From Bacteroidia bacterium (GTDB lineage Bacteria; Bacteroidota; Bacteroidia; Cytophagales; Cyclobacteriaceae), in NCBI GenBank assembly GCA_030426345.1, contig JAUHYU010000009.1, positions 1-64,000 of the forward strand: 64,000 nt of DNA, written 5' to 3'. Below the pieces are notes generated by a model. The model made no database searches, had not been told where the DNA came from, and worked only from the letters and a program-made list of their open reading frames with translations. Shown piece after piece: positions 5,781-63,408 of the stretch. How positions within the stretch are numbered: the first letter of the stretch is position 1; each line of letters begins with the position of its first letter. The position numbers and the translations under genes are program-made.

Positions 5781-5825
5781 ACGCCACCGAAAGCATGTTT
5801 GGAATTCTATATGGATAGCTAACAG

Positions 5826-7083: not shown

Positions 7084-7118
7084 AGCTTTTATAATTCATT
7101 TGAAGCAAATTTTGCATC

Positions 7119-7139
7119 AAAAAGCCTCCAAAATCCATG
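7119..7139 (-). repeat. Dispersed motif copy (intergenic, after recG stop)
   Basis: rc = CATGGATTTTGGAGGCTTTTT. Confidence 0.85.
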
Positions 7140-7146
7140 AAAGCAT

Positions 7147-14039: not shown

Positions 14040-14053
14040 AAATTTTTGAAATT

Positions 14054-14143
14054 ATGCCTTGCGGTAAAAAAAGAAAAAGACACAAGATCGCCACTCACAA
14101 AAGGAAAAAGCGATTAAGAAAAAACAGACATAAGAAGAAATAA
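14054..14143 (+). CDS. 29-aa very basic protein, AURKAIP1/COX24 (mS38-like) family (absent from ORF track)
   Basis: ATG..TAA encoding MPCGKKRKRHKIATHKRKKRLRKNRHKKK, between TPR gene and rng. Confidence 0.85.
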   Translation: MPCGKKRKRHKIATHKRKKRLRKNRHKKK

Positions 14144-14152
14144 TTTTCTTCT

Positions 14153-14174
14153 TATGGATTTCAGGGGGCTTTTA
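14153..14174 (+). repeat. Dispersed motif copy (intergenic, after COX24-like ORF)
   Basis: TATGGATTTCAGGGGGCTTTTA. Confidence 0.7.
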
Positions 14175-14190
14175 ACTTAAACAAAATTAG

Positions 14191-16469: not shown

Positions 16470-16482
16470 TTTTTTCTTTCCT

Positions 16483-16503
16483 CATGGATTTCAGAGGCTT
16501 TTT
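16483..16503 (+). repeat. Dispersed motif copy (intergenic)
   Basis: CATGGATTTCAGAGGCTTTTT. Confidence 0.85.
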
Positions 16504-18394: not shown

Positions 18395-18415
18395 AAAAAG
18401 CCTCGAAAATCCATG
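18395..18415 (-). repeat. Dispersed motif copy (intergenic)
   Basis: rc = CATGGATTTTCGAGGCTTTTT. Confidence 0.85.
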
Positions 18416-18541
18416 AATATAAAGTTAATGTGAAAATTAGAATAGATGTATAGTTTATTTTTTTTTGAGTTAATTTTAGGCGAATTTAAATTACCCTTGT
18501 TTAATGATTTTTGACAAACCTTGTAGCAAAGTCATGTTTTT

Positions 18542-24775: not shown

Positions 24776-25663
24776 TTCTAGTTTGCAACCTGCTCTTTCC
24801 ACACTTAACTTAGCTTTCATTCCTACTGTAATAGCATAATTTTCTTTGGCATGTCCAATGGGATAATTGAACGCTAGGGGATAATCAAACTCTTCGACAT
24901 GGCTATGAATAATTTCATTCGCATCAGCACCAAAACTATCTTCATTGTCTTTCATTTCTGAAAACTGGCCTATGATCAGGCCTGCCAAATTCTCCAACAA
25001 TCCAGCTCGCTTAAGTTGTACCATCATTCGGTCAAGGTGATAGAGGTTTTCCCCAACATCCTCCAAAAACAATATCTGGTCTTCGGTATCAATATGAGAG
25101 GTGGTGCCTATGGTGTGACAAATTATAGACAAATTTCCTCCTGTGATTTTTCCTGTGGCAACGCCATACCGATTTAGAGAATGGCTCTCGATGGTATGAG
25201 ACATTTCTTTACCAAAAACCAAATCATGCAGCCATTGCAATGAGGTTGGTTTCAGTGCATAAAAAAACGAAGGCATAGGTGAATGAATACTAGCGATACC
25301 GAGATTAAAAAGATGTAAATGAAATGCTGTAACGTCGCTAAATCCACAAATCCATTTTGGGTTGGTGAAAAGTGGTCTAAAATCCATGGCATCGATAATC
25401 CTTGTAGATCCGTAGCCGCCTCGCACCATGAATATCGCCTTTATCTCAGGGTTGTCTATCATGCGCTGAAGATCTTCCTTGCGCTCCTCGTCTGTACCAG
25501 CAAATTGATGGTGGGAAGCAAAAACATATTCTCCTACTTTGACTTCCAGCCCCCAGCCCTTTAGCACCTCAATTCCCTCAAGGGTATGGGTTTTATGCAC
25601 TTTTTTTGCTGTGGCAACTATGCCAACCTTATCACCCGATTTTAAAAACTGAGGAATTATCAT
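24761..25663 (-). CDS. Muramoyltetrapeptide LD-carboxypeptidase (S66 family)
   Basis: IKAIFMVRGGYGSTRIIDAMDF, CGFSDVTAFHLHLF, LFLEDVGENLYHLDRMMVQLKRAG. Confidence 0.92.
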   Translation of the reverse strand: MIIPQFLKSGDKVGIVATAKKVHKTHTLEGIEVLKGWGLEVKVGEYVFASHHQFAGTDEERKEDLQRMIDNPEIKAIFMVRGGYGSTRIIDAMDFRPLFTNPKWICGFSDVTAFHLHLFNLGIASIHSPMPSFFYALKPTSLQWLHDLVFGKEMSHTIESHSLNRYGVATGKITGGNLSIICHTIGTTSHIDTEDQILFLEDVGENLYHLDRMMVQLKRAGLLENLAGLIIGQFSEMKDNEDSFGADANEIIHSHVEEFDYPLAFNYPIGHAKENYAITVGMKAKLSVERAGCKLELYKK

Positions 25664-25704
25664 GGTTCAAAATAAAAAAACCTCAGCGGATATCGCAGAG
25701 GTTT

Positions 25705-25725
25705 CATGGAATTTTGAGGCTTTTT
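25705..25725 (+). repeat. Dispersed motif copy (intergenic, after skp stop)
   Basis: CATGGAATTTTGAGGCTTTTT. Confidence 0.85.
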
Positions 25726-31104: not shown

Positions 31105-32135
31105 TTGGCAAATATATAAGAAAACTTAATGGACGTTATTGTAATTACGTCACTTTTACTACCTCCTCTTACATCACCGTCATTGCCAAATCCGTGATAA
31201 ACGGTATATGATTGGCCATCGTATTTAGACTCGTATGTGTATTCACTTGTAGAATTGTTGATTATATTTTGATCTCTCAATTTATTTTTTATCACTGCTG
31301 TTGTCTCCTGTGATCTGTCAGACAATGTCCGTGCCAACTCGCTATCCAGAACTCCCAAATCCACATAATCTGATCCTACATCATCGAGATAATCAGAAAG
31401 AAAGTATACCGCAGAAGCCTCCAAGTACAGGTCCATCTTATATCCGAGCCTAATTCTGACGCCACCTCCAAAGGGAATTCCAAGCTGGATGGGGCTATAT
31501 TTATTGCCATAGTCGGGGTGATTTTGCCCTTCTGTTCCAAGCGGTCTTAGAGCCACCCAATCACCTGCATTGCCAAATGGAATCCCATCCCGTGACATTT
31601 CTGGAACTTTTGCTTTAGGGTTGCTGTAAAGAACAGATAGTCCTGCCGATAAGTAAACATTAAAATTTCTACGCTTAAAGTACTCAAACGGATCGCGAAG
31701 CAAGTTCAAATTGCTAATCAGTGAGATACCAACCATATCATTTCTAAAGCTCAAATTGCGCACATATTTTCTTGCTGCAACTGTAGTAGCGTACGGGTCT
31801 GAAAAATTATCATTACTGAAAATTCTACCATACATCAATTCCCCTTTGAAAAATAAATGACTGGATTGGTGGTAATTGACAAATGCGGAAACTCCGGGAC
31901 GCATGGATTTTAGGGTGTTTTTGAGGTAGTTTTCATTGGCCGAGAGATCCCCAAAGTAGTTTAGCATGTGAACCCCAATCCCACCATTAAAATATTTAGT
32001 TTCTTTTGTTGCTCTTAAATATCCTGCTTCTGAGGAGTGGTTCTTTCTTTTATACTTAAATTCTGTATACTGTGAAAATGCATCTACAGATAGCAGATTA
32101 CAGAAAACAAGGATATATAAAACTCTAACGCCCAC
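31101..32135 (-). CDS. PorG-like (DUF6089) outer membrane beta-barrel protein
   Basis: YFNGGIGVHMLNYFGDLSANENYLKNTLKSMRPGVSAFVNYH..; strong similarity to the next ORF. Confidence 0.8.
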   Translation of the reverse strand: MGVRVLYILVFCNLLSVDAFSQYTEFKYKRKNHSSEAGYLRATKETKYFNGGIGVHMLNYFGDLSANENYLKNTLKSMRPGVSAFVNYHQSSHLFFKGELMYGRIFSNDNFSDPYATTVAARKYVRNLSFRNDMVGISLISNLNLLRDPFEYFKRRNFNVYLSAGLSVLYSNPKAKVPEMSRDGIPFGNAGDWVALRPLGTEGQNHPDYGNKYSPIQLGIPFGGGVRIRLGYKMDLYLEASAVYFLSDYLDDVGSDYVDLGVLDSELARTLSDRSQETTAVIKNKLRDQNIINNSTSEYTYESKYDGQSYTVYHGFGNDGDVRGGSKSDVITITSIKFSYIFAN

Positions 32136-34108: not shown

Positions 34109-34774
34109 TTATATATCGAGGAAATTTAATAGGTTGTCCAGCCTTTCCCGTTCTGTTTCTTTGGTGCTGCTTTCATGGAATTTTGCTGCTATTTTATAGT
34201 TAAATCTTTCCAAAGTGGCAACAACGGTAGTCAGGTCTTCTTTGTTGATCTTGAGCGTGAGGTATATAAAATTTGGGTCGCCAGGCGACTGACTCAGAAA
34301 TGCCCCTAATATCTTAGCATCATCTGATTCTATCAAACGGCTAATTTCTGACATAGAATAATCCATATATCTCATTTCCAAAACAAGAATTCCGCCTTGG
34401 CCCTGCACGGCAAGAGTGCTGGCAAAAGCTTTCAAGGTATCTTCATTTCTGGAAACACCCAGATATTCTCCGTCATGGTTGACAATTGCTACTAATTCAG
34501 AATCACATTCCTTTGCTACTCTGATCAGATCCAATAGATGCTGGTCTTCATTAACATAGCACTGTTCAGCAATGAGCTTGAGGTCCCCAATTTTTCGGTC
34601 TAGATTATTTCCATCAAGAATTATGTCCTCGGTAACCAAACCCTTAAAGGCCTTTTTGTCGATGACCGGAAGCTGATTGGTCTTGAGCTCCTCCATCCAG
34701 ATTATAGCCTTTTCAGCTGCATCGGTGTACTTCAGCGCAGGGATCATCTGATTTATAAGTTCTTCAGCAATCAT
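34109..34774 (-). CDS. CBS-domain protein
   Basis: Two CBS-like repeats (LPVIDKKAFKGLVTEDIIL; LVAIVNHDGEYLGVSRNEDTL). Confidence 0.8.
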   Translation of the reverse strand: MIAEELINQMIPALKYTDAAEKAIIWMEELKTNQLPVIDKKAFKGLVTEDIILDGNNLDRKIGDLKLIAEQCYVNEDQHLLDLIRVAKECDSELVAIVNHDGEYLGVSRNEDTLKAFASTLAVQGQGGILVLEMRYMDYSMSEISRLIESDDAKILGAFLSQSPGDPNFIYLTLKINKEDLTTVVATLERFNYKIAAKFHESSTKETERERLDNLLNFLDI

Positions 34775-35592: not shown

Positions 35593-36162
35593 TCAATTGG
35601 ATAAGGAATTTATATTTTTCCAATTTCTTAATATTTCTAGCCCATATTCCGTAAGGAGCGCCTCGGGATGAAACTGCAAACCATAAATTGGAAGTGTTTT
35701 ATGCTTCATCGCCATGACCTCTCCTTCATCCGTTTTTGCCAAAACCTCCAAATCGCCTGGCAGGTTTTCGCAGATTAGTGAATGATACCTGACTACTTGC
35801 GTGTTTGTGGGAATGCCATCAAAAATCTTGTCGCCCAAGTGGATTATATTTGATGTTTTCCCGTGCATGGGTTTATGGGATTTTACCACATTTCCACTAA
35901 AAAATTTTCCAATAGCCTGATGGCCAAGGCATATCCCCAATACTGGTATTTTATCATGATAAAAGCCTAAAATTTCCATGAGATTACCAGCATTTTCTGG
36001 CACGCCTGGACCGGGTGAAAAAACTACTGCTTTATACTTCTCGGATTGCAATTCATGAAGCGGGGTATTATTTCTACACACTTTTACTTCTAAATCTAAT
36101 TGATGGAAATAATCAACCAGGTTGTAAGTGAAAGAATCGAAATTATCGACAAGTAAGATCAA
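35593..36162 (-). CDS. Glutamine amidotransferase, anthranilate/aminodeoxychorismate synthase component II
   Basis: LVDNFDSFTYNLVDYF, SPGPGVPENAGN, VLGICLGHQAIGKFF, GLQFHPEALLTEYG. Confidence 0.93.
   Translation of the reverse strand: MILLVDNFDSFTYNLVDYFHQLDLEVKVCRNNTPLHELQSEKYKAVVFSPGPGVPENAGNLMEILGFYHDKIPVLGICLGHQAIGKFFSGNVVKSHKPMHGKTSNIIHLGDKIFDGIPTNTQVVRYHSLICENLPGDLEVLAKTDEGEVMAMKHKTLPIYGLQFHPEALLTEYGLEILRNWKNINSLSN
35960..35980 (-). repeat. Dispersed motif copy (in glutamine amidotransferase gene)
   Basis: rc = CATGGAAATTTTAGGCTTTTA. Confidence 0.7.
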
Positions 36163-37921: not shown

Positions 37922-38800
37922 ATGAATAAATCAATGACCGGATACGGGCAGGCCCGTTTTGAAGATGACCAATACGCCATCAGTGTAGAAATAAAAACCC
38001 TCAACTCTAAATTTTTGGATGTCAATATCCGATTGCCAAAGGCCTTTAATGATAAGGAAATTCCATTGCGCAATTTGATAAGCGAAAAGTTGGAACGCGG
38101 TAAAGTGGGCTTGACTTTTGAATTTTTGAACAAAAGCAATACGGTTTCGAAGGTAAAGATCAATGAAGCTCTGTTTCGTGAATATTACGATAAACTGCTA
38201 GTACTTTCTGATGGCGTTAATTCTAACAGCAGCGATGTATTTAAAATGGCTATTCAGTTCCCGGAGGTTATCATCAATCAAGAAGATGATTCTGATAGGG
38301 TAAAAGACTGGGAGATCCTATTGTCGGTAATTTCAGAGGCTTTGGATAATTGCAACGAATTCCGATCTATGGAGGGTGAAATACTCTCAACAAATATTCA
38401 AAGCTATATCGAATCTATACAAAATAACCTAAATGAAGTATTGGAATTAGACCCATTGAGGGTTGAACGCATTCGATCCCGCATCAATGGTAATCTCGAT
38501 GAATTTGTGCAGCGCGAAGAAATTGATATAAATAGGTTGGAGCAAGAGTTGATCTATTATATAGAAAAACTCGATATCAGTGAAGAAAAGGTACGGCTGG
38601 CCAGCCACCTTGACTATTTTTTAGAGATACTAAACGGTCCAAAATCCATGGGAAAAAAACTGAATTTTATTGCTCAAGAAATTGGCCGCGAAATAAATAC
38701 TATTGGCTCCAAGGCTAACGATGCAGCTATGCAGAAGTTAGTTGTAAATATGAAAGAGGAACTGGAAAAGATCAAAGAACAACTGCTCAATATCCTATAA
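37922..38800 (+). CDS. YicC/YloC family endoribonuclease
   Basis: MNKSMTGYGQARFE, SVEIKTLNSKFLDVNIRLP, GKKLNFIAQEIGREINTIGSKANDA. Confidence 0.95.
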   Translation: MNKSMTGYGQARFEDDQYAISVEIKTLNSKFLDVNIRLPKAFNDKEIPLRNLISEKLERGKVGLTFEFLNKSNTVSKVKINEALFREYYDKLLVLSDGVNSNSSDVFKMAIQFPEVIINQEDDSDRVKDWEILLSVISEALDNCNEFRSMEGEILSTNIQSYIESIQNNLNEVLELDPLRVERIRSRINGNLDEFVQREEIDINRLEQELIYYIEKLDISEEKVRLASHLDYFLEILNGPKSMGKKLNFIAQEIGREINTIGSKANDAAMQKLVVNMKEELEKIKEQLLNIL

Positions 38801-38808
38801 CAAAAAAA

Positions 38809-38844
38809 CCTCTCCGCACAAGATTTTAATCCTGCGCGGAGAGG
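38809..38844. terminator. Bidirectional terminator between yicC-like (+) and susD-like (-)
   Basis: CCTCTCCGC...GCGGAGAGG stem; on minus strand followed by a 7-T run. Confidence 0.75.
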
Positions 38845-38867
38845 CCTTGAATCAAACCAAATATTAA

Positions 38868-40553
38868 TTAATAGGAGTCATTCTGAACCAAGTAACCTTC
38901 TAGAATAGAAGCTCCATCAACAGCAGACTGTGGAATTGGGAACAAACGTTTCTTGGGATCAGCATTTGTTTTCGCTGTATAGGGATCTTCATATTTTCCA
39001 AAACGAATCATATCAGTACGTCTTTGAAATTCCCAATAGAATTCAAATCCACGCTCACGATATAAGATATCAAGATCCATAGAAGCCAAGGCAGGTGCCG
39101 TATGTCTAGCAGTTCTTGATGCTCTCACTAAATTTACATCAGCTAGAGCACTAGCAGCATCACCTTTGCGCAATTGCGCCTCTGCACGCATCAAAAACAT
39201 ATCTGCATAACGAAGTACAATCAAATCTGCTTGCCCTCCATTTCTACCTGAACTTGATTCTTTACTAAATTCATATTTCTCTACTCTATATCCAGCACTA
39301 TGAGAGCTATTAGTGGTAAAATCAACTTCTAGGGTATGGTCAACAGGTGCACCCACGTCAGATCTACGATTGGTAACCAGATCTACTACATATTTATCAC
39401 CTTCACATCTCTCAAATGGATCTCCACCTTGGTCATGCTGTAGGCCATACAACAACCCTCTATAAATACCCCTGTCAATTTCAAAATCTTCAGCACTCAC
39501 ACATCCGGGTTCATTGATTAAATTATCTTTATGGAATCGAGGATCAGCATCTGCAGGATCTACTCCAGGATTTGCATCTACCCATGTTTGATAAAAATCA
39601 GGGGTAATAGCGGGACCATCAGTACCGTTGGCACTAGGAAATTCTGGAAGCGGATAAAAATCCCCCGACATGGAGAAATAAGCCATCCGATTGTGACCAC
39701 CCAAATCAGCACGTTGATCAATAGCAAATATCAATTCTTTATTTGTATGGTTTTCATCATCAAATATTTCAAAATATTCAGCTGAAAGTGCGTGTTCTCC
39801 AGAACTAATTACTTTGTTGGTATATTCAATAACCGCATCCATATCAGCCGTGCTAAAGTCAGGTGTTCCGTAAGGATCCCTATAAACAGCAGCATTCAAA
39901 TAAATTCTAGCCAATAGTGCCTGAACACCTGTTTTGGTCATTCTTCCCGGACCAACCTGAGTTACTGTAGCAACGCTTCCTTCCACATCTGTCAATTCAC
40001 TTATTAAATAATCAACTGCATCACTTCCTCTAAGTATTACAGATTGATCTTCAATTCTATCTTTGACAAACACCAAACCAAATGCATCGAGCAATATATG
40101 GTTGTAAAGGGCTCTCATTGCTCTTGACTCTGCTAAATAGATAGCAGATTGAGGATCAGATTCTGCCAAAATTTCTAATACAGAAATTGCACTAACTGCT
40201 GCGGCTATATGTTTTGTGACTCCATTCCAAACATCGCTCATGATGGCATTACCTGGGGTAGGAACATGTAAATATAAATCGGAAAATTTACCACCATCAC
40301 CCCAGTCAGTACCACCTCTATAAGGCAATATGGCTTCATCAGTAGAAATTTCCTGCATGGCAAAATATTTCGTATGTCTCCAAATATCATCCTGCGCTTG
40401 TGCATACACAGGGGCTAATGCAGCCACCGCTTCATCAATTCCTTCGGTACTTGGAGTCAAAGATTCATCCAAAATATTCTCTTCAAGATCTGTACAGTTC
40501 CAAGTTAATAGTAAGCTGCTTAGCAACAATACCATTGTTATCTTGTTTTTCAT
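38868..40553 (-). CDS. SusD/RagB family nutrient-binding outer membrane lipoprotein
   Basis: Lipobox LTWNCTDL, RAMRALYNHILLDAFG, LRYADMFLMRAEAQLRKGD, RERGFEFYWEFQRRTDMIRFGKY. Confidence 0.94.
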   Translation of the reverse strand: MKNKITMVLLLSSLLLTWNCTDLEENILDESLTPSTEGIDEAVAALAPVYAQAQDDIWRHTKYFAMQEISTDEAILPYRGGTDWGDGGKFSDLYLHVPTPGNAIMSDVWNGVTKHIAAAVSAISVLEILAESDPQSAIYLAESRAMRALYNHILLDAFGLVFVKDRIEDQSVILRGSDAVDYLISELTDVEGSVATVTQVGPGRMTKTGVQALLARIYLNAAVYRDPYGTPDFSTADMDAVIEYTNKVISSGEHALSAEYFEIFDDENHTNKELIFAIDQRADLGGHNRMAYFSMSGDFYPLPEFPSANGTDGPAITPDFYQTWVDANPGVDPADADPRFHKDNLINEPGCVSAEDFEIDRGIYRGLLYGLQHDQGGDPFERCEGDKYVVDLVTNRRSDVGAPVDHTLEVDFTTNSSHSAGYRVEKYEFSKESSSGRNGGQADLIVLRYADMFLMRAEAQLRKGDAASALADVNLVRASRTARHTAPALASMDLDILYRERGFEFYWEFQRRTDMIRFGKYEDPYTAKTNADPKKRLFPIPQSAVDGASILEGYLVQNDSY

Positions 40554-40571
40554 ATCTCTATATTTTTATTA

Positions 40572-43500
40572 TTAAAATGTAAGATTAAGGCCGAACACAA
40601 AGGTTTTGGCTTTTGGATAGGCGAATTTATCAATGCCAAAGGATTGGATTCCACCTGTTGAACTATCCGTGTTTACCTCAGGGTCATAGCCGTCATAATC
40701 TGTAATTACAAATAAATTTTGTCCGGTAAAGGTTAGTCTCAATTCTTGAAGCCAGCCTATAGGTTGCGTATTAAATGAATATCCAACTGTTAAATTATTC
40801 AAACGGAGGTAAGACCCATCTTTTAGATAACGTGTTGAAACCGCTGCGGCATTTATGATGCTCTCTTCAGGAAATTCAGTGGCTATATCCGTAGTATTAT
40901 TTGATTTACTCAATAACGTTTTGTAGAAACTACCCATGGCTGTATGGTCATAAATTTCATTCCCAGATACCCCATTAAAACTAGCATTCAAGTCAAATCT
41001 CTTAAAACTTAGGTTTGCATAAAAATTATAGGTCATGTCCGGTAAAGCACTTCCAACCACAGTTCTATCGTTTTCAGTAGATTCTCCATCACCATCGCTA
41101 TCTACAAACTTTGAAAAACCATCTTCATCAATGCCTATAAAAGTTTTCATATAAAAAGCTCCAATTGCCTCACCACTCACGAATCCGTTAATCGTGGCAT
41201 CCGTAAGTCCTTGACCTTGTGCAGATCCAGTAGTTACAATTGTAAAGGGAGAGTCTTCCACAACATTATTAATAAAAGTGGCATTTCCCCCAAACCCATA
41301 TGAAAGCCCTTCACTATTATGCTGCGAAAAATCCAGTGCTATTTCAAGTCCCTTGTTTACAATGGTCATTTCTGGAACATTTGTCCAATAAGTTGGAGCA
41401 ACAGAAATAGGATCTACAGGTACTACCTCTAATAAAATGTTATCTGATACTTTATGGAAATAATCTATCGTACCCGTTAAACTGCCATCAAAAAAACCAA
41501 AGTCAACCCCAATATTAGATTGTGTGGATACTTCCCATTGGATATCTGGATTGGCAAATCGAGTATATACAGACCCTACTGGATAGGGACCATTTTGATC
41601 AATAGGATAACTAACACCACTGGATGTACTCACCGTAAAAGATTCTTTTGTGATTTTGTTTGGAATTTCTTGATTTCCAGTTTTTCCCCAACCTGCTCGA
41701 AGTTTCAGATCACTAAAAAGAGATCCATCCATAAATGACTCTTCTGATATTCTCCATCCTGCAGCAAATGATGGAAATGTTCCATATCTATTGTTTTCGC
41801 CAAATTTAGAAGAACCATCAGCTCTTATTGTAGCTGTTAATAAGTACCTGTCTTTATAACTCCAATTGGCCCTACCAAAGAATGATTGTAGTTCGTTTTC
41901 CCAAGCGCTTCCCGTAGGCTGATTATTATCACTAATAGTAAGTTCTCCACCCAACCCTGGGTTGTATCGAGGTTCAATTCCTGTATCAGGAGCAAATTCA
42001 TCAATTGACCAAGAGCTACCGCGTGAAAAAGTCTTTTGATAAGAATGACCTCCTAAAACACTTAAATTGTGATCTCCTATATCAAACGTATAGGTCAAAT
42101 AGTTTTCTATCAAATTGTTTTCAAAATCTCCAAAAGATTGGGTCAAGTTACCCAAATCATTCCTATCAGTATTGGCAATAGTTTGTTGATCCTGACTGGA
42201 AGATCTGTTTTCGTGGCCGAAATTCATTTTGTACACCAGACCATCAATTATTTCAAAAGAAGGAGCTACATTGATCAAAATTCTACGGGACTCAGAAAAG
42301 TCTCCGACATATTTATTGTGGAGTAAAGGATTGTTCCAGTTTAAGGGGTTATTGATTTCTCCGTCTGCAGTATAAGCATCAAATGTAGGGTTGGTTCCAT
42401 ACCCCAAATTATTGTTTCTAGATTGTTCTGTGACAGTCGTATTTAAATTATAGTCAATATTTAACCTATCATCCAATAATTTTTGAGTTATATTAATTCT
42501 GGCACTTGTTCTTTTTAAACCGGAATTATACACAATCCCTTCTTGGTCTTGCAAACCTAAGGAAGCATAATAATTCAGTTTACTAGTCCCTCCTGATAAA
42601 ACCAAATTGTGATTTTGGGTAATGGCAGTACGCGTCAATTCCTCTTGCCAGTCTGTAGATCCACCACCATCTATCAATTCATTTCCAGGAATTGCCGCCA
42701 CTTGTCGACGGAATTCGTCCGCCCCAAACACAGGTAATGCACGCGCCAGTTTAGATATCCCTAGATTGGAAGAAATAGATACTTTACCAACTCCTTCTTT
42801 TCCCTTTTTAGTAGTGATAAGAACAACTCCATTTGCACCTCTTGCACCGTAGATAGCTGTTGCAGAGGCATCTTTCAAAATATCAATCGTTTCAATATCC
42901 TCCGGATTGATAAAGTTTAATGGACTTCCCCCAGAACCCGTTCCTGCAAGTCCCAATGGAAATCCGTCCAAAACGAATAAAGGCCCTGAGCCTGCGCGAA
43001 GCGTTCCTTGCCCACGAATAACGATACGTTGGCCACTGCCAGGCTCTCCACTTGAAGAAGTGACATCAACACCCGCAGCTTTACCTTGTATTAATTGTCC
43101 TGCATTGTTTACAACTCCTTTGTTAAAGTCTTCACTGGTTACGCGCTTTACGGCACCGGTTACATCTTTTGTCTTTTGTGTACCATAACCAACAACCACA
43201 ATCTCTCCGAGTGTGGTAACATCTACGGTAAGGTTCAAGTTGATTACACTTTGGTTGCCGATGGTTACTTCTTCTTGTATAAACCCAACAGAACTAAATA
43301 CTAATACGGGATTGTCCCCAGGCACTTCCAAGGAATAATTGCCATCCAAATCCGTGACCGTACCATTACTGGTTCCTTTCACGATTACATTTACTCCTGG
43401 TAGGCCTTCAGTATCTTCTGATGATGTGACCTTTCCAGAAATAGTGCGACCTTGAATAACCACCTCAATATCGCTATTGGATTTTAGTTCCAATTGCTTG

Positions 43501-43850
43501 ACACTTATATTCAGGTTGACCTGCTTGAAATGCAGATTGGCTTTTTTTGCAACTTGAAGCAGAAGGTCTTCCACTTTTCCGTTTTTGAATTCCAGATTGA
43601 TCTTCTGATCTATATTGATTTTTTCATCACTATAGATGAAGCTGAAATCTGTTTTGCGTTCAACTGCCCTAAATATTTGTTTAAGGTTGGCGTTTTGAAG
43701 AGATAGAGAAATATCAACTTCTTTTACACTTTTTATTTGGGCGTTGCTGTCTGCCGCGAGCATAGTTCCAAAACTAACGCAAGCTGCAAACAATCCATAC
43801 ATGACATATTTTGTAGCCATTAATACTTTTTGTAGAATATTAAAATTCAT
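40572..43850 (-). CDS. SusC/RagA family TonB-dependent transporter with N-terminal STN signalling domain
   Basis: STN region, carboxypeptidase-like domain, plug TGAVKRVTSEDFNKG, DILKDASATAIYGARGANGVVLITTKKG, C-terminal beta-barrel ending in LNLTF. Confidence 0.96.
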   Translation of the reverse strand: MNFNILQKVLMATKYVMYGLFAACVSFGTMLAADSNAQIKSVKEVDISLSLQNANLKQIFRAVERKTDFSFIYSDEKINIDQKINLEFKNGKVEDLLLQVAKKANLHFKQVNLNISVKQLELKSNSDIEVVIQGRTISGKVTSSEDTEGLPGVNVIVKGTSNGTVTDLDGNYSLEVPGDNPVLVFSSVGFIQEEVTIGNQSVINLNLTVDVTTLGEIVVVGYGTQKTKDVTGAVKRVTSEDFNKGVVNNAGQLIQGKAAGVDVTSSSGEPGSGQRIVIRGQGTLRAGSGPLFVLDGFPLGLAGTGSGGSPLNFINPEDIETIDILKDASATAIYGARGANGVVLITTKKGKEGVGKVSISSNLGISKLARALPVFGADEFRRQVAAIPGNELIDGGGSTDWQEELTRTAITQNHNLVLSGGTSKLNYYASLGLQDQEGIVYNSGLKRTSARINITQKLLDDRLNIDYNLNTTVTEQSRNNNLGYGTNPTFDAYTADGEINNPLNWNNPLLHNKYVGDFSESRRILINVAPSFEIIDGLVYKMNFGHENRSSSQDQQTIANTDRNDLGNLTQSFGDFENNLIENYLTYTFDIGDHNLSVLGGHSYQKTFSRGSSWSIDEFAPDTGIEPRYNPGLGGELTISDNNQPTGSAWENELQSFFGRANWSYKDRYLLTATIRADGSSKFGENNRYGTFPSFAAGWRISEESFMDGSLFSDLKLRAGWGKTGNQEIPNKITKESFTVSTSSGVSYPIDQNGPYPVGSVYTRFANPDIQWEVSTQSNIGVDFGFFDGSLTGTIDYFHKVSDNILLEVVPVDPISVAPTYWTNVPEMTIVNKGLEIALDFSQHNSEGLSYGFGGNATFINNVVEDSPFTIVTTGSAQGQGLTDATINGFVSGEAIGAFYMKTFIGIDEDGFSKFVDSDGDGESTENDRTVVGSALPDMTYNFYANLSFKRFDLNASFNGVSGNEIYDHTAMGSFYKTLLSKSNNTTDIATEFPEESIINAAAVSTRYLKDGSYLRLNNLTVGYSFNTQPIGWLQELRLTFTGQNLFVITDYDGYDPEVNTDSSTGGIQSFGIDKFAYPKAKTFVFGLNLTF

Positions 43851-43944
43851 AATTTCGTTTGTTTTTAATTAAACATATTCCAAATGGAACCCTGTGATAT
43901 ATTTATGATTTTAGCGGATGATAAATATGAGGAGGATTCCGATG

Positions 43945-43980
43945 GGCCGGAAGATCCCTGATCTTCCGGCCTTCTTTTTT
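43945..43980 (+). terminator. Plus-strand-oriented intrinsic terminator upstream of susC-like gene
   Basis: GGCCGGAAGATC-CCT-GATCTTCCGGCC, 12-bp perfect stem, followed on + strand by TTCTTTTTT. Confidence 0.75.
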
Positions 43981-44005
43981 GTTATGATTTATTCATTGGC
44001 AGTTT

Positions 44006-45091
44006 TCAGTTAAAGTTTATCATTACATTTTTATTTTGAATTTTATAGGTAAACCCCAGCGAAAAGCCGAGGTTGTTCAGTACATTGTTCAAGTATTCTT
44101 TCTTGAATTGCCCTGAGCATGTCAAAGTTTTGTTGGGGAGCGCGTTGACCTTTATGTCAACGTTGTACCATCTTTCAAGGGTTTTGATGGCCTCTATAAG
44201 ATTGGTTTTGTCAAAATAAATGATGCCGTCTTTCCAGAGCAGGGTTTTATTAGCGTCAAACGCCCCTTTTTCCATGGTTCCCGATGGTCTGTCAACAGTA
44301 GCTTTTTCTCCAGGGGATAGATGGATTGAATTATCATGATTGTCTTGCACCAGGACTTTTCCAGTAACCAGTGCTATTTCGATTTCCTTTTCTGTAGCAT
44401 AAGAGTTGATGTTGAAGGAAGTGCCCAAAGCCGTTGTGGTCAATTGATCCGTACGCACGGAAAATGGGTTGTTTATATCTTTTGTAACCTCAAAGAATGC
44501 CTCTCCTTGTAAAAAAACCTCTCGTTTGCCTAATGCAAAATTATCGGCATACCGCAGTTCACTTTCCGCATTGAGGTATACTGTAGATCCGTCAGGTAGA
44601 TGTACTTGAGATTTCTGGCCTGCCGGGTTCGATTTTATTATTTCAGTCACTACTGGAGGAGCAACTACTTTATCTGGTTCCTGAAACGAAAACTGAAAAG
44701 CAAAAAAGACTGCGATTGCCGCGGCGGCAAATAAGCTCCACACTACTTTTCTATCCTTACTTTTATGCGAACTTATATCCATGGATTTTGGATGGATCTC
44801 TCCCTTCAATTCATGTTCGAGGTTGCTTAGTTTGATGCGTTGCCATAGTTTTTCCTTAGCAGAATCCGAATAAGAGACTTTTATGGAATATATACTTTTG
44901 ACAATGGATTGGGCTTCATTGATGTGGTCGGGGAATTTCTGATGCAAAAGCATCCATTTTCCATGAGCTTCACCCTTTTTGTCACAAGGACTTAGCGTCC
45001 AATCAATAAATGATTTATCATGGATCAGTTCCTCTATTGTATATTTTTTTCCCTCCACAGATTGCCTATTTATATATATGAGGCATGGCAT
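44006..45091 (-). CDS. FecR-family anti-sigma factor
   Basis: SQVHLPDGSTVYLNAESELRY, FLQGEAFFEV, C-terminal TCSGQFKKEYLNNVLNNLGFSLGFTYKIQ. Confidence 0.93.
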   Translation of the reverse strand: MPCLIYINRQSVEGKKYTIEELIHDKSFIDWTLSPCDKKGEAHGKWMLLHQKFPDHINEAQSIVKSIYSIKVSYSDSAKEKLWQRIKLSNLEHELKGEIHPKSMDISSHKSKDRKVVWSLFAAAAIAVFFAFQFSFQEPDKVVAPPVVTEIIKSNPAGQKSQVHLPDGSTVYLNAESELRYADNFALGKREVFLQGEAFFEVTKDINNPFSVRTDQLTTTALGTSFNINSYATEKEIEIALVTGKVLVQDNHDNSIHLSPGEKATVDRPSGTMEKGAFDANKTLLWKDGIIYFDKTNLIEAIKTLERWYNVDIKVNALPNKTLTCSGQFKKEYLNNVLNNLGFSLGFTYKIQNKNVMINFN

Positions 45092-45890: not shown

Positions 45891-48566
45891 TTAGAAATTA
45901 CCTCCAACCACGACTTTTTTTCTATAAAGTTTCCTAAACCCGGAGGTATTATAGACCTCAACATATACAATGTAAGCGCCCATTCTCACCTGTTGGCTGT
46001 TGTCATCAAGGCCTTCCCATTTGAAATTTTCTTTGGCACCAATGGATTTATGGGATATGATGGACTTTATCTTTCTTCCAGAGGCGTCGAGAATCATGAT
46101 ACTTGCCATATTTCCATTATTTGGAAATCGGCATTGGATGGTTGTGAAATTTGCGTAGCCACTATTCCCGGGAGCGAAAGTTTTGGGGAATACAACTATT
46201 TCTTCGCCTTCTGAATTACTGTTCATGTGCTGCGAATTTACACTTCCGGGTGTGGCAAACCCGGAAGTACTTGCGGCAGACTGCCAGTTGTCCGGGCTAT
46301 TGGTTGGGCTTTCAAAGGCAATTCGTTCCAGTGAAACTCCATCGACATCCCGCAAAAATCCCGAATGAAAATCTTCACTGTAGTGAAAAAAATCTATCAT
46401 TTTTCCATCAGGATCGGCGATAAAAACGTCTCCTTCATCATTGTTGAAAGCAGGCAGATCCTCCACCTCCAGTATATTTTTTGTTTCAACACCAGGATAC
46501 TGATTTTGTAACTTTCCTGGGTTTTCAGTCAGGGCAAGATATTGCGTTGGTTCTAAAATGAAATGATCGTAGATGATTGGTTTGCTAGTTTCATTTCCGA
46601 CCAAGAGGTCTTTCAGGTCAATGTATTTATCGGAAATATTGTACAGCTCGACGAAATCAACTCCATCGCCCAATGGATTAAATAATATTTCATTGATCAA
46701 TATATCTAGACTATCTGCCCTTTCCGGCAATACAAAACTTCCAGAAGTCTCTTTTTGTACATTTCCGGCACAGTCTTGCAGGTTTTTTGCCGTAAGGGTA
46801 TAAACCGTCTTAGGTAAAACCGATTCATGGAAATTTAAAGCTATTTCGTTCAGTTCTGGAGATTTTAGTTCCACACCACTAATTTGAACCTCAGGAATGA
46901 TTGAAAAATCCATGGATTCCAGATCTTGTGGAATGATTTTTTCGCTGAGGTACACGATAGCTGATGTTGGTGTCGCAGCAATTATTTTGGTGATTTCTGG
47001 TGCAGAAAGGTCTGTCATTGGCTCCTTTATAGAGTTTTCCTTTCCCGGTGTTCCTCCTGAAGCATCCTCAGAAGCCGCCCAGTTTTCTTCCCCTTTGCAG
47101 GGAAAATAAACGTCGATCATTTCCAAAGACCAGCCTCCATCATCCTTGTCGATGCTCTTATACCATGTGTCTTTATATTCTACAGAAAAAACCAAACCTC
47201 CCAAATGATTGAGCAAAGAAATCCGTTCGCCACGGTTGTTCAAGCTTGGCCAGTTAGAAACCTTTACGGGACGACCATATTGTGCTAAATGTTCGACAGC
47301 AGCTGATGCACACAAAATGATGTATTCATCTGGGTTTATAGTCAAATCGGGAATCGTGGTAGTGTCATTGCCGACGATCAGTTTTACTTGGTTCAATTCG
47401 TAATGTTCTTCGTGAGGGTTGTGGATTTCCAGATATTCATGCTCTGGCAAATCAACTTCTGGTGTGGGATCTGCCATAATTTCTGTAATTAGAATATCAC
47501 CAAACCCAAGTATCTGTGGAGCCACATAAGTGAATGAAATATCTGTTGGCGGCATCACATTGGAATATAAATCTTCCAAACCATTCATGGATATTTGGTG
47601 CATTATCTTATCCGAAAACTTCTTCTCGAAAGTGAGCAGCACGGAATTTCCATTGGTAAGAATTGCCAATTTTGGATTGGCGATTCCATTATCAACAGAA
47701 TAATTTGATGGGTTATTTGCTGAAGGTTCGCTAATGTTTTCAGTGAAATTAATTTGCAAGGTGGAATCGGAAAGTACCACTACCGAGTCAACGACAGGAG
47801 GTTGATTGTCCGAGTGGGCTTTGCCTGTGATGTGCAAATCGTCAAAGAAAAATTTATCGGATCGGGTAGAAGAATAATTGCATAAAATGCCAAAATACTT
47901 TGAGCTGAAATTAGTGCCTAACGTGAAAGTTCCTTGCGAAACATAGTTGCTATCGAGATTTGGATCGACAAGCAGATTCCACTCATTTTCATGGTTTTTA
48001 GACACTTTTATGTTCATCGCAACTTGACTGACATCTACCAGATCATCCTCACCATCAATTATTTTGGTAGCTTCTGATTTTTCTCCAGACTGTAAGTACA
48101 GGCTCACATCATCTTGAGTAGTTCCTATCCGAACAAAAAAACCATTTAATCGATTTTCGAGGCTTTCTTGATCAGAAATGAGGTATATATCCATGAAATT
48201 GTTTGAAGAGGGATTGAAGTCGAGTTGAATAAAAAACGACCATTCCGCTTCTTCAATAATGTCGCTCTGTGTGACAAGGAAAGACTGACCATCCTCAGGA
48301 AGCGCTGACAATTGAAGTTGAAAGCTGGGATTAACCATGAAATCCGTTGTTTCACCAGACCAAGAGGGAGAATCGGTGAAATTCCCATCAGCAAAATCAT
48401 CCATGATAATAGACTGGGCCGAAGTGGCCAATGCTATTTGCGCAAGGATTATAAAAATGAAAATGGATTTCATCATAACATTACCAACAGTTGTTTTAAA
48501 GAAAACATTTTCGCCTAAAACGCAACTCCTTAATCCTAAAACTGTTAATTTTGCAGCCCAATTCAA
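45891..48566 (-). CDS. Large exported protein with lamin-tail domains and FlgD-like/T9SS-type C-terminal domain
   Basis: ILITEIMADPTPEVDLPEHEYLEIHNPHEE and ILINEILFNPLGDGVDFVELYNISDKYIDL (lamin-tail), C-term FKWEGLDDNSQQVRMGAYIVYVEVY. Confidence 0.82.
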   Translation of the reverse strand: MNWAAKLTVLGLRSCVLGENVFFKTTVGNVMMKSIFIFIILAQIALATSAQSIIMDDFADGNFTDSPSWSGETTDFMVNPSFQLQLSALPEDGQSFLVTQSDIIEEAEWSFFIQLDFNPSSNNFMDIYLISDQESLENRLNGFFVRIGTTQDDVSLYLQSGEKSEATKIIDGEDDLVDVSQVAMNIKVSKNHENEWNLLVDPNLDSNYVSQGTFTLGTNFSSKYFGILCNYSSTRSDKFFFDDLHITGKAHSDNQPPVVDSVVVLSDSTLQINFTENISEPSANNPSNYSVDNGIANPKLAILTNGNSVLLTFEKKFSDKIMHQISMNGLEDLYSNVMPPTDISFTYVAPQILGFGDILITEIMADPTPEVDLPEHEYLEIHNPHEEHYELNQVKLIVGNDTTTIPDLTINPDEYIILCASAAVEHLAQYGRPVKVSNWPSLNNRGERISLLNHLGGLVFSVEYKDTWYKSIDKDDGGWSLEMIDVYFPCKGEENWAASEDASGGTPGKENSIKEPMTDLSAPEITKIIAATPTSAIVYLSEKIIPQDLESMDFSIIPEVQISGVELKSPELNEIALNFHESVLPKTVYTLTAKNLQDCAGNVQKETSGSFVLPERADSLDILINEILFNPLGDGVDFVELYNISDKYIDLKDLLVGNETSKPIIYDHFILEPTQYLALTENPGKLQNQYPGVETKNILEVEDLPAFNNDEGDVFIADPDGKMIDFFHYSEDFHSGFLRDVDGVSLERIAFESPTNSPDNWQSAASTSGFATPGSVNSQHMNSNSEGEEIVVFPKTFAPGNSGYANFTTIQCRFPNNGNMASIMILDASGRKIKSIISHKSIGAKENFKWEGLDDNSQQVRMGAYIVYVEVYNTSGFRKLYRKKVVVGGNF

Positions 48567-49612: not shown

Positions 49613-50791
49613 ATGTTGCATGAGCTTCTGCTACCGGAAGTAAGAAAATTTATAAAGGATCATCAGAACGATGATCCTTTTTTGCTTTCGCTAAAAGGCA
49701 AAAAAAGCCCTGATTTTCCATGGAAAGAAGCCATCGAGCAAATCCAATCTTTGCAGAAGGCGAAAAATAAGCTACCACTTTGGTATCAAACAGAAGGAAT
49801 TATTTGGCCTCCTCCGATTTCTGTGGAGCAGTCATCTTCTGAGCTCACAGCTAATTTCAAATCAGAATTAATCCAAGGAAATTCTATAGTTGACCTCACC
49901 GGAGGAGTGGGCGTGGATAGCACTTTTTTTGCCGAAAAAGCCTCGGAAATCCATTACGTAGAAGTAAATGAAAATTTGGCAGAACTGGCGAAACACAATT
50001 TCAAAATCCTTGACAAAACAAATATTACTGTCCACAATCAATCTGCTGAAACATTTCTTGCCCGGAATAAAAGGAAATTTGACACTATATTTTTAGACCC
50101 TTCCCGACGGGTTGAAGATCGCAAGGTTTTTAAGATTGAAGATTGTGTTCCAAATTTATACGAAGTTATTCCCAAGTGCTTGGAGTTTACAGATCAGGTA
50201 TTGGTCAAGCTTTCTCCGATGGTCGATTTGTCCTTGTTGATAAAGGATTTTTCTCCGGCAAAAATTTGGGTTGTATCTGTATCGAATGAGATAAAGGAAG
50301 TTTTGTGCCTCATAAAGCCTCAAAAATCCATGACCAGGATTTCTGCCGTTGAACTCAAAAATCATGGAAAAATTATGGCTTTTGAGTTTGACTCGGAGGA
50401 AGAGGCCCTAGCCCAAAATGAATATTCGTTCCCACTAAAATACATCTATGAACCTTCTTCGGCATTGCTCAAAACCGGGACGTTTAAATTGATCGGGCAA
50501 AGATTCCGTTTGAAGAAGCTGCATCAACACTCACACCTTTATACTTCTGATGAAAAAGCCCTCAATTTCCATGGGCGCACTTATCTTTTGAAGGCCCAGA
50601 TAAAGGCAGATAAAAAATTCATAGCACAGATTGTTCCCGATAAAAAAATCAATGTCGTGACCCGTAATTATCCGTTAACCACAGAACAGATAAAAAAGAA
50701 GTTTGGGCTAAAAGACGGTGGGAAAGATTTTTTGATCGGTACTACATTGATGGATGACAAGAAGGCTTTGCTTTGGTGCGAAAAAATTTAG
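49613..50791 (+). CDS. Class I SAM-dependent methyltransferase (THUMP-like C-terminal domain)
   Basis: IVDLTGGVGVDSTFFAEKA, IFLDPSRRVEDRKVFKIEDC, VLVKLSPMVD. Confidence 0.88.
   Translation: MLHELLLPEVRKFIKDHQNDDPFLLSLKGKKSPDFPWKEAIEQIQSLQKAKNKLPLWYQTEGIIWPPPISVEQSSSELTANFKSELIQGNSIVDLTGGVGVDSTFFAEKASEIHYVEVNENLAELAKHNFKILDKTNITVHNQSAETFLARNKRKFDTIFLDPSRRVEDRKVFKIEDCVPNLYEVIPKCLEFTDQVLVKLSPMVDLSLLIKDFSPAKIWVVSVSNEIKEVLCLIKPQKSMTRISAVELKNHGKIMAFEFDSEEEALAQNEYSFPLKYIYEPSSALLKTGTFKLIGQRFRLKKLHQHSHLYTSDEKALNFHGRTYLLKAQIKADKKFIAQIVPDKKINVVTRNYPLTTEQIKKKFGLKDGGKDFLIGTTLMDDKKALLWCEKI
49702..49722 (-). repeat. Dispersed motif copy (in methyltransferase gene, copy 1)
   Basis: rc = CATGGAAAATCAGGGCTTTTT. 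Confidence 0.8.
49935..49955 (-). repeat. Dispersed motif copy (in methyltransferase gene, copy 2)
   Basis: rc = AATGGATTTCCGAGGCTTTTT. Confidence 0.75.
50312..50332 (-). repeat. Dispersed motif copy (in methyltransferase gene, copy 3)
   Basis: rc = CATGGATTTTTGAGGCTTTAT. Confidence 0.85.
50553..50573 (-). repeat. Dispersed motif copy (in methyltransferase gene, copy 4)
   Basis: rc = CATGGAAATTGAGGGCTTTTT. Confidence 0.8.
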
Positions 50792-50796: not shown

Positions 50797-50985
50797 TTAC
50801 CCAACCATAACCATTACCAAGCTCAGTAAGAGTGTGATTGTTCCATAATACCTCAAAACCATAAGGCGATTTTGTATGTCGAGAAACCATAGTACCCACC
50901 ATGGCCTGATCATGCCCAATATGGTGATCGGCAGGAATATCCAAAAAAGAATTTTAATAAAAAGTATCATAAAATCCATGACCAA
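50797..50985 (-). CDS. Small two-TM hypothetical membrane protein
   Basis: 62-aa ORF MVMDFMILFIKILFWIFLPITILGMIRPWWVLWF..; strongly hydrophobic, fills the gap between neighbours. Confidence 0.5.
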   Translation of the reverse strand: MVMDFMILFIKILFWIFLPITILGMIRPWWVLWFLDIQNRLMVLRYYGTITLLLSLVMVMVG

Positions 50986-52702: not shown

Positions 52703-53856
52703 ACCCAAAACAAATCACTGATGATTTCGTCGGCTACAAATTTTCCTTTTTTGGTTAGAAAAACATGTCGGTCTTTAATCTCGACGTATCCCTTTTTTGA
52801 CAATTCAGATAGTTTTTCGCCCTGCTCACCAAGTAGATCATATTGATATAAATCATATAATTTGGCCAAGTCGCATCCCCAAATGGTGCGCAGGGAGGTA
52901 AGCATAAACTCGTTGACAAAATCTTTTTGAGACAAATCTTCCTTTTCAAATGGTACCGATCCGGATTCTATGGATTTCATATATCCATGGTTATTTGATG
53001 TATTTGCCTGACGGTGTTGACCATCATAGGAATGAGCACCTGGGCCAATGCCCAAATAGGGAACATTCTTCCAATAGGATGTATTATGTTTGGCGTAATG
53101 TCCGTCGCAACAAAAGTTGGAAATTTCATATTGCTGGTAGCGGTTTTCTTCCAGCTTGGAAATAATCAAGTCAAATTGATCAGCGGAAATTTGGTCTGTC
53201 AAAGGTTTGAACTTGCCTTTTTTAAGCCAATTGCCAAAAACGGTTTTTTCCTCAATTGTCAGACTATAGGTAGAAACATGCTCAGGATGTAGCTTAAGTA
53301 CTTGGGCGATGTCCTTTTCCAGATCCCCCGGTTTTTGATTTGGAATAGAAAATATCAAATCGATAGATAGGTTTTCAAAACCTGCTTTCCTGGCGTTTTC
53401 TACACAATTTATGGCTTCGGAAGCATCATGCGCGCGATTGAGAAATTTCAAAGTAGCATCCTGGAAAGACTGGATGCCAATGCTAAGCCTATTGATTCCC
53501 ATGGATTTTAGGCACTTTAATTTGTCCAAAGACAGATCATCGGGGTTTGCCTCTAGCGTGATCTCGGGCGAATTATCGATGCCATAAATATCATTCATGG
53601 ATTTTATGAGCTTTTCCAGCTCATTGGCAGACAGCATGGACGGAGTTCCTCCACCGAAATAAATGGTTTCGATCGGCACTCCTTTCAGATAGGATTTTTG
53701 CAGTTCCAATTCCATGCAAATGGCATCGACCATCTGTGCCCGGTAGCTGGTGTTGGTGCTGAAATGAAAATCGCAGTAGTAGCACGCCTGCTTACAAAAT
53801 GGAATATGAATATAAAGACCTGCCAAAATAGAATTAATTTTGGTGCAAGTTATCAA
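52699..53856 (-). CDS. hemW: Radical SAM family heme chaperone HemW
   Basis: GLYIHIPFCKQACYYCDFHF, YFGGGTPSML, INRLSIGIQSFQDATLKFLNRAHD. Confidence 0.95.
   Translation of the reverse strand: MITCTKINSILAGLYIHIPFCKQACYYCDFHFSTNTSYRAQMVDAICMELELQKSYLKGVPIETIYFGGGTPSMLSANELEKLIKSMNDIYGIDNSPEITLEANPDDLSLDKLKCLKSMGINRLSIGIQSFQDATLKFLNRAHDASEAINCVENARKAGFENLSIDLIFSIPNQKPGDLEKDIAQVLKLHPEHVSTYSLTIEEKTVFGNWLKKGKFKPLTDQISADQFDLIISKLEENRYQQYEISNFCCDGHYAKHNTSYWKNVPYLGIGPGAHSYDGQHRQANTSNNHGYMKSIESGSVPFEKEDLSQKDFVNEFMLTSLRTIWGCDLAKLYDLYQYDLLGEQGEKLSELSKKGYVEIKDRHVFLTKKGKFVADEIISDLFWV
53596..53616 (+). repeat. Dispersed motif copy (in hemW)
   Basis: CATGGATTTTATGAGCTTTTC. Confidence 0.6.
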
Positions 53857-53865: not shown

Positions 53866-55608
53866 TTGAGCATCAAGTCAGCGATATTTTCCTTGTCATT
53901 ATTTTTTCTGTGCGGAGCGGGCATTGCCCAACCTGTGCTGGAGACCTCCTTCTATTATTATAATAGTGAAACCGAAAAAAAGCATGTTTTTTCCATGGAA
54001 AAACAGCAAGTTGACTCGCTGTTACTTGACAAAGCCATCAATCAACGGTTGCAACAATTGTATGAAAAAGGCTATTTGGGAGCTATGGAAGAACTTATCT
54101 TCACGGAGATTGGCAAAGCAGATGTGTTTTTTTATACCAATGAAATTTTTGCCACGGGCAAACTCTCAGTTGGAAATGTAGATGAGGAGATCATTAATAA
54201 GATCGGGTTTAGTTCTACTAGTTTTAATGAAAGGCCATTTTCGCATCAGCGTGTTGTTCGTTTGCTTCAGTCAATTTTGGATTATGCGGAAAATAGCGGA
54301 TACCCTTTTGCTTCGATCAAATTGGATTCAATTTCCATTATTGAAAATACCATCAATGCCGAATTAGATTACCAAAGCGGGCCGATGATTGTTTTCGATT
54401 CGCTGGTCATCAGTGGTAGCAGCACTGTAAAATCGAGTTACTTGATGGCGTATCTGGGCCTGTATAAGGACAAGCCCTATGAAGAAAAGCTGATAGAAGG
54501 GATTGCTGCCAAAATGCAATTGCTGCCATTTGTAGAGTTGGCAGAAAACCCTGAAATATCCATTGTAGAGGAGAAATGCATCGTACACTTAAACCTGACA
54601 AAAAAGGATGCCAGTTCTATGGATGGGATTTTAGGTATTTTGCCCAATCAAAAACAAGGCAACGGAATGTTGATCACGGGACAGGTAAATTTAGATTTGA
54701 AAAATCTATTTGCTTCTGGTAAAAACCTGGCCTTAGAGTGGCAAGGATATGATGCCAAATCACAGTTGCTGAATGTGCTCTATTTCCATCCAAATCTTTT
54801 CAAAACTCCATTAAATGTAGAAGGGGGCTTTGATTTGTTGAAGCAAGACACCACATTTCTCCAGCGCGAATTTGATGTGGAGTTGTCTCTGATCGCTAAA
54901 AACAGTGGTCATTTAGGATTTCGAACTGAATTCATATCGTCGAGATTAATTAGCACCGCCGATTTAGAAAATATTGTAGAATTACCGGAAAACACGGATT
55001 ATAATTTAAACTACTACGGGTTGAATTACCGCCTCAGAAGGTACGATAATATTAATTTTCCCTCACGAGGATATGGTTTGAAGATGAATGGCTCCGTTGG
55101 CCAGAAAAAAATCATCCAAAATCCATCACTCAGCCAGGAGGTTTATCAAGATGTAGATTTCAACTCTGTACAATATAAATGGACCGGTGAATTAGATAGC
55201 TTTTTTCCAGTTTATAGAAACATCCTTTTAAGAGCAGAATTGAGTGGCGGCTATCTTCAAGGGAATAAACTTTTTATGAGTGATTTATTCAGAATTGGTG
55301 GGCTGCGTACTTTGCGGGGATTTGCAGAAAATCATTTCTATACCTCAAAATATGGAGTTGCAACAGTAGAATTTCGAGCATTGTTTTCCAACGAAACATA
55401 TTTCATGCTATTTTATGATCAAGGGGCTTTGTCGGGAGATGAATTTTCAGATGGCAAAGTGCAATATCCATTCGGTACAGGTGCCGGATTTAGCTTCGCC
55501 ACCAATGCCGGGGTTTTTAATTTTGTCTTGGCAATGGGAAAATCAAAGTCACAACCATTTGGCTTTGATCATGCAAAAATCCATTTTGGCTATGTAAGTC
55601 GCTTTTGA
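53866..55608 (+). CDS. BamA/TamA-family (Omp85) outer membrane protein; probable TTG start at 53866 (ORF-track start 53698 overlaps hemW)
   Basis: POTRA-like N-terminus, barrel with LFRIGGLRTLRGFAENHFYTSKYGVATVEFR; TAATTTTG -7-like element at 53835-53842. Confidence 0.8.
   Translation: MSIKSAIFSLSLFFLCGAGIAQPVLETSFYYYNSETEKKHVFSMEKQQVDSLLLDKAINQRLQQLYEKGYLGAMEELIFTEIGKADVFFYTNEIFATGKLSVGNVDEEIINKIGFSSTSFNERPFSHQRVVRLLQSILDYAENSGYPFASIKLDSISIIENTINAELDYQSGPMIVFDSLVISGSSTVKSSYLMAYLGLYKDKPYEEKLIEGIAAKMQLLPFVELAENPEISIVEEKCIVHLNLTKKDASSMDGILGILPNQKQGNGMLITGQVNLDLKNLFASGKNLALEWQGYDAKSQLLNVLYFHPNLFKTPLNVEGGFDLLKQDTTFLQREFDVELSLIAKNSGHLGFRTEFISSRLISTADLENIVELPENTDYNLNYYGLNYRLRRYDNINFPSRGYGLKMNGSVGQKKIIQNPSLSQEVYQDVDFNSVQYKWTGELDSFFPVYRNILLRAELSGGYLQGNKLFMSDLFRIGGLRTLRGFAENHFYTSKYGVATVEFRALFSNETYFMLFYDQGALSGDEFSDGKVQYPFGTGAGFSFATNAGVFNFVLAMGKSKSQPFGFDHAKIHFGYVSRF
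53977..53997 (-). repeat. Dispersed motif copy (in Omp85-family gene)
   Basis: rc = CATGGAAAAAACATGCTTTTT. Confidence 0.6.
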
Positions 55609-63309: not shown

Positions 63310-63387
63310 ATGTCCAAATACGATGGGCTTCAGCAGAATTATGTTAAAAAGACAGGAATTTTCAGAGCTCTCGAGCAAAACGAACTT

Positions 63388-63408
63388 CATGGGTTTTGAA
63401 GGCTTTTT
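63388..63408 (+). repeat. Dispersed motif copy (intergenic, gldN-aspS)
   Basis: CATGGGTTTTGAAGGCTTTTT. Confidence 0.8.

Follow-up and report, generated by a model that had tools for sequence, protein, structure and literature searches.

The window, that is, the whole stretch of 64,000 nucleotides of DNA that was analysed, belongs to a draft genome assembly of 5.1 Mb. At 49613–50791 on its forward strand lies a gene for a class I SAM methyltransferase, PG_1098-like, with Pfam matches to PF22013 (2.8e-19) and PF18096 (9.9e-13) and with PG_1098_Fer and Thump_like domains in its product. An earlier note on this DNA had reported four copies of a motif in this gene, in all three reading frames, and both statements were borne out: the copies are present on the forward strand at 49702–49724 (21.7 bits), 49935–49957 (19.3 bits), 50312–50334 (23.0 bits) and 50553–50575 (23.2 bits), with codon offsets of 2, 1, 0 and 1, respectively. 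These four share one orientation, as had been claimed, but this does not extend to all copies in the gene, since a fifth is located on the minus strand at 50361–50383 (15.4 bits). The copy that had been placed over the start of the next ORF (50960–50982, forward strand, 16.6 bits in the weight-matrix scan) is intergenic: the stop codon at 50791 is about 170 bp behind it, and the ORF at 51051 follows after about 70 bp. The likeness between the copies was correctly attributed to DNA rather than to a protein motif, as the encoded peptides depend on the frame and the substitutions seen against orthologs changed the protein.

In total, the methyltransferase gene carries five copies above 14 bits, four of them above 18 bits. 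When its synonymous codons were shuffled, at least four sites above 14 bits arose in 55 of 5000 trials (five observed), and four sites above 18 bits in 0 of 5000 trials (four observed). This control is conservative because the motif has already altered the protein: the copy at 50553 encodes Phe-His-Gly (FHG) instead of the family-conserved FPG, of which the Pro-Gly is kept in 8 of 8 aligned orthologs.

A special tie between motif and gene is not supported. The motif occurs genome-wide, and two further genes of about 1.15 kb likewise have five copies each. Clustering in other genes, which had been proposed as a check, was indeed found, with 11 genes having at least five sites (3.7 expected) in a mildly over-dispersed distribution, and the methyltransferase gene is merely in its upper tail. 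It is therefore an incidental carrier of a genome-wide motif. Chance clustering, or a regulatory element peculiar to this gene, could explain why this gene ranks so high in copies per kb, but with a motif that is found throughout the genome and with four strong copies that never emerged from synonymous shuffles, we regard this explanation as refuted; gene-specific regulation was rejected on the genome-wide counts.

The motif across the window and the genome

The window holds 66 copies above 14 bits. In the weight-matrix scan, strong copies on the forward strand were located at 7119–7141 (26.8 bits, the best in the window), 10649–10671 (20.3), 18395–18417 (25.8), 25368–25390 (20.5), 35960–35982 (19.5), 38630–38652 (19.9), 44945–44967 (19.4), 53977–53999 (20.7) and 55107–55129 (20.3; common to the relative G002, 14.6 bits). 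On the reverse strand they were located at 5432–5454 (19.8), 5758–5780 (22.3), 16481–16503 (23.2), 25703–25725 (25.7), 31900–31922 (20.8), 34172–34194 (20.8), 44778–44800 (20.6), 53594–53616 (22.3) and 63386–63408 (24.3).

Two genes from the methyltransferase, at 45891–48566 on the reverse strand, a gene encoding two lamin-tail (LTD) domains, a Big_5 domain and a FlgD-like C-terminus has six motif copies, including those at 46824–46846 (reverse, 20.1 bits), 46894–46916 (forward, 19.0), 47584–47606 (reverse, 21.0) and 47988–48010 (reverse, 19.3; common to G001, 16.8 bits). No other lamin-tail-domain protein was found in the genome, and an ortholog is also present in the motif-poor relative G001. 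A surface DNA-binding role for this protein is conceivable.

The consensus, AAAAAGCMTCWAAAATCCATGR, was obtained by expectation maximisation on 451 kb of the window's genome (the window and 20 loci), with 191 kb of further DNA held out. It is an asymmetric motif of 21–23 bp, consisting of an A-tract, GC, four loose bases, an AT-tract and then TCCATG-R. The AT-tract follows the first A-tract by about 11 bp, or about one helical turn, and the CCAT is 98–99% identical between copies. In the window, TCCATG is found 82 times, compared with 27 predicted from base composition, and an A-tract and GC often lie ahead of it at a constant distance. Exact matches to the strict pattern AAAGCNTNNNAWWTCCATG number 490 genome-wide (240 forward and 250 reverse), with none to the reversed pattern.

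Above 14 bits, 462 sites were found in the 451 kb, compared with 28–37 in fourth- and fifth-order Markov sequences, whose models were themselves trained on motif-holding DNA, and with five in reversed DNA. The held-out 191 kb contained 0.92 sites per kb, with two matches in the reversed sequence. The weight-matrix counts thus cover the 451 kb and the held-out 191 kb rather than the whole genome, and extrapolate to about 5,000 copies in 5.1 Mb.

Between neighbouring copies there is no preferred orientation (208 pairs in the same and 200 in opposite orientation), strand numbers are similar in most 20-kb blocks, and the copies are spaced at random (CV 1.03). Signals polarised with replication or recombination, such as Chi, KOPS or AIMS, are likewise short, frequent and chromosomal, but a motif with this even split of neighbours and of strands makes such a role very improbable, and polar chromosomal signals (Chi/KOPS) were rejected for lack of local orientation bias.

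Of the 462 sites, 316 are coding, 124 intergenic and 22 at gene edges. The coding copies lie in every frame and on both strands at 0.79 per kb, and the density in noncoding DNA is about five-fold that in coding DNA. Synonymous shuffling gave 62 coding sites and resampling from the genome's codon usage gave 51, therefore codon usage does not explain the copies. Simulation with codon usage had been put forward in the earlier note, and here, as within the methyltransferase gene, where the four strong copies never arose, it could not reproduce what was observed.

Some regions are poor in the motif. SusC/SusD-type genes have one copy in 12.1 kb where 9.6 were expected, and SusCD-FecR loci make up two of the three longest motif gaps. 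In the window, 5.6 kb at 38629–44255 are motif-free and contain a SusC/SusD pair beside FecR and an ECF sigma factor; a comparable gap was seen at positions 1–7115 of locus L024. An integrase contig (L172; G000, C139), which is possibly contamination, has one copy in its 14.6 kb, against about 14 expected. Besides uvrB, tsaD and a series of small unknown genes, it encodes an integron-integrase-like integrase, and it may be foreign DNA, a cassette array or assembly contamination. Motif density is near normal at other integrase loci. Taken over this limited set of loci, the shortages would be in keeping with uptake sequences, which tend to be fewer in constrained or recently acquired genes.

Inverted pairs

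There are 26 convergent pairs of copies offset by exactly 15 bp and overlapping in TCCATGGA. Many of these are perfect or near-perfect palindromes, the match extending even to the loose positions, and many palindromic pairs sit 15–120 nt past stop codons. Two inverted pairs in the window span 159–196 (14.9 and 19.6 bits) and 5171–5208 (24.3 and 16.3 bits); the latter shares TCCATGGA and is located in a gene, and its forward copy is common to G003 (22.7 bits). For two example pairs, the predicted hairpins have folding energies of about -20 and -24 kcal/mol and end in A- and U-tracts. Based on the predicted folding, the inverted pairs resemble what bidirectional terminators would look like. A role as terminators only was rejected, as only about 52 of the 462 sites belong to the 26 pairs.

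Origin of the copies

In methyltransferase orthologs from five genomes of the same genus (52–65% protein identity), the motif is mostly missing. The orthologs align across the sites without indels, except at the first site, where G006 has extra codons. The position homologous to the copy at 49702 scores 14.8 bits in G004, that homologous to 49935 scores 16.4 bits in G006 and the place of the minus-strand copy at 50361 scores 12.3 bits in G002, while no ortholog has a copy at 50312. Some copies are common to relatives, for example 4 of 15 with G002. At homologous positions in the congeners, median scores were -0.3 to -9, compared with about -20 to -22 at random same-frame positions, so that the relatives have half-formed motifs there. 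Across 93 ortholog pairs, protein identity was 0.52 in motif codons and 0.71 elsewhere. The half-formed motifs, the nearly gap-free orthologs and the low identity together show that the copies arose by point substitution, tolerated where the protein is less constrained, and that they changed proteins, as in the replacement of FPG by FHG.

The comparison with orthologs had been proposed in the earlier note. The copies are mostly missing from relatives at 52–65% identity, but the excess over codon-usage controls is large genome-wide. With such an excess, absence from sister species points to a recent gain here or a loss there, and not to chance. The test of synonymous conservation that had been suggested does not fit this pattern.

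An insertion of the copies by a mobile element (REP/BIME, MITE or IS-borne) was considered because the perfect intergenic palindromes resemble REP units. However, same-genus orthologs that are nearly gap-free through the coding copies, with half-formed motifs at the homologous positions, leave this origin only the slimmest of chances, and REP/MITE-type insertion was rejected, the near gap-free orthologs showing no sign of insertion.

Distribution among relatives

In a survey of strict matches covering 397 genomes from the family and 398 sampled phylum-wide, the window's genome had 490, three congeners had 23, 13 and 11, and no other genome was above background. The motif is therefore restricted to a few species of one genus among the genomes sampled. 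At more than 14 bits, density per Mb was 1,023 here, 487 in G005 (from just 20.5 kb), 346 in G002, 198 in G003 and 70–97 in G001 and G006. In G003, expectation maximisation with a fixed prior gave a consensus with GCATTA where the window's genome has GCMTC; the variant obtained from pooled G001 and G006 is unreliable.

In a tree of the methyltransferase, a single-gene tree with weak support, the motif-poor G006 is placed beside the motif-rich G002. A single recent gain is thus no more likely than loss in some lineages.

Other over-represented gapped pairs were observed in the loci of G001 and G003 (L043–L059, L119–L138), for example CTGTG-N3-CACAG in G003 and CCGGT-N3-ACCGG in G001. These look like ordinary palindromic or local repeats.

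Competence genes

ComEC and DprA are nearly universal and non-specific, and both are present in the window's genome. The dprA gene is split by a frameshift in the motif-poor G006 (L190, around 3429; C65), where it is otherwise well conserved; the split may reflect either a genuine loss of competence or a mistake in the assembly. It is intact in the motif-rich species and also in the motif-poor G001 and G004.

For the type IV pilus/type II ATPase (PF00437), the genome gave only matches below the cut-off, and for the secretin (PF00263) it gave none, so canonical uptake by type IV pili was rejected. A Riemerella-type receptor of the DUF5689 family, to which a surface protein of R. anatipestifer belongs, was also rejected, as the family was not detected in the genus. 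Among the ORFs near comEC, inspected by eye over 20 kb of partly N-masked sequence, no outer-membrane barrel was recognised. Downstream of comEC (L180, about 13620–15200), masked bases (N) make the genes unreadable.

Competence in Riemerella anatipestifer needs ComEC, DprA, ComF and RecA, together with four further proteins that have no counterparts by homology in the known uptake machines (PMC8459023). During transformation, R. columbina favours DNA of its own, although a convincing uptake motif was not recognised and the candidate motifs listed for Riemerella were A-rich k-mers alone (PMC7965970). Selectivity of uptake without the known type IV pilus parts therefore has a precedent in this phylum. 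Our genome resembles Riemerella in having ComEC and DprA, and differs in the lack of detectable DUF5689 in the genus and in a motif that is not an A-rich k-mer. In openly accessible published papers, we found no candidate for a Bacteroidota uptake sequence beyond the A-rich k-mers of Riemerella and Flavobacterium.

Discussion

Strong motif-dependent uptake preference has been reported only for Pasteurellaceae and Neisseriaceae, with 1,465–2,206 uptake signal sequences (USS) in Haemophilus influenzae and 1,892 DNA uptake sequences (DUS) in Neisseria meningitidis (PMC7811141). USS are reported to evolve by point mutation and to be less frequent in coding DNA under constraint and in newly acquired DNA (PMC7811141). 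The motif described here is similar to USS in its density of about 1 per kb, in occupying both strands as well as coding and intergenic DNA, in having a core plus AT-tracts, and in its spread by point mutation (PMC7811141). It differs in that the core of USS is centred on GCGG while TCCATG follows the AT-tracts here, and in belonging to another phylum and to a genome where no secretin and no type IV pilus ATPase above the cut-off were detected.

The likeness to DUS lies in the thousands of copies, the inverted pairs linked to terminators and the clade-restricted variants (PMC3630211). DUS are 10–12 bp long, have no AT-tracts, are read by the pilin ComP and come in dialects with a CTG core, unlike the TCCATG core of this motif. 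The inverted pairs of DUS, which are linked to terminators, are mostly non-overlapping (PMC3630211), whereas the pairs here share TCCATGGA.

The motif thus has the density on both strands, the occurrence in several frames with an excess in noncoding DNA, the terminator-like pairs and the substitution origin of an uptake sequence. Neither a known DUS or USS core nor a type IV pilus machine (PilB/PilT ATPase, secretin) was found, and because of the different sequence and this lack of the pilus machine we do not assign it to DUS or USS. The set of properties resembling USS and DUS, along with a Riemerella competence that works with other parts, makes an uptake signal read by a surface receptor the best explanation. 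From our analysis, the motif is most likely a DNA uptake sequence of a pilus-independent competence of Bacteroidota type, a reading in which we have somewhat better than even confidence.

A cell-surface DNA receptor would prefer fragments that carry the motif, and recombination of such fragments would copy the signal into the chromosome. Copies could then accumulate by point mutation and biased uptake (molecular drive) where the protein tolerates them, and inverted pairs may have been recruited as transcription terminators. Of this, we infer that a receptor exists, that uptake is biased and that drive operates; the motif itself, its abundance and lack of polarity, its origin by substitution, the cost to proteins, the hairpin pairs and the restriction to one clade are shown by the sequences.

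Another possibility is an abundant cytoplasmic binder, such as a nucleoid-associated, chromosome-organising or global regulatory protein, the sites of which are under direct selection and have no role in uptake. The asymmetric core and the phased A-tracts would suit a protein that binds bent DNA, and searches for the type IV pilus ATPase, the secretin and DUF5689 revealed no uptake receptor. However, about 5,000 mostly coding copies in every frame and orientation, at a cost to proteins, would be unusual for such a binder, as would random spacing and occurrence in just a few species, all from one genus. The sites of Noc, MatP, SlmA and ParB are present in far fewer copies. We consider a cytoplasmic binder unlikely, though worth bearing in mind.

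It is also conceivable, but rather improbable, that a process of mutation, repair or DNA modification favours this sequence, and that the copies are a by-product with no receptor involved, as is suspected for HIP1 of cyanobacteria. HIP1 is an 8-bp palindrome that is dispersed, tolerated in coding DNA, present at high density and not an inserted element. In its dispersal, its tolerance in coding DNA and its similar density, it is the other repeat that resembles our motif, and the origin of the copies by substitution would also suit such a process. On the other hand, our motif is asymmetric, with about 21 positions (21–23 bp in the full consensus), two AT-tracts and a core, and thus exceeds both HIP1 and a typical modification site in length and in structure.

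Returning to the uptake reading, the motif is probably a new variant of the uptake-sequence type, and the striking genome-wide feature itself is real. We give about an even chance to the more specific proposal of an independent uptake-sequence system in Bacteroidota, with a non-pilus surface receptor, that is strong in one lineage and weaker or decaying in its sisters.

If this is true, self-tagging in bacterial transformation would have originated a third time, and for the first time in a system that lacks type IV pili. This would mean that self-tagging evolves repeatedly and that the pilus is not needed for it, and the known ligand would provide a handle for finding the outer-membrane DNA receptor of Bacteroidota. 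The gradient among the congeners offers a clade with a changing signal, in which molecular drive can be tested against selection. Should the uptake reading prove wrong, a single genome with about 5,000 copies of a protein-altering 21-mer would still demand an explanation.
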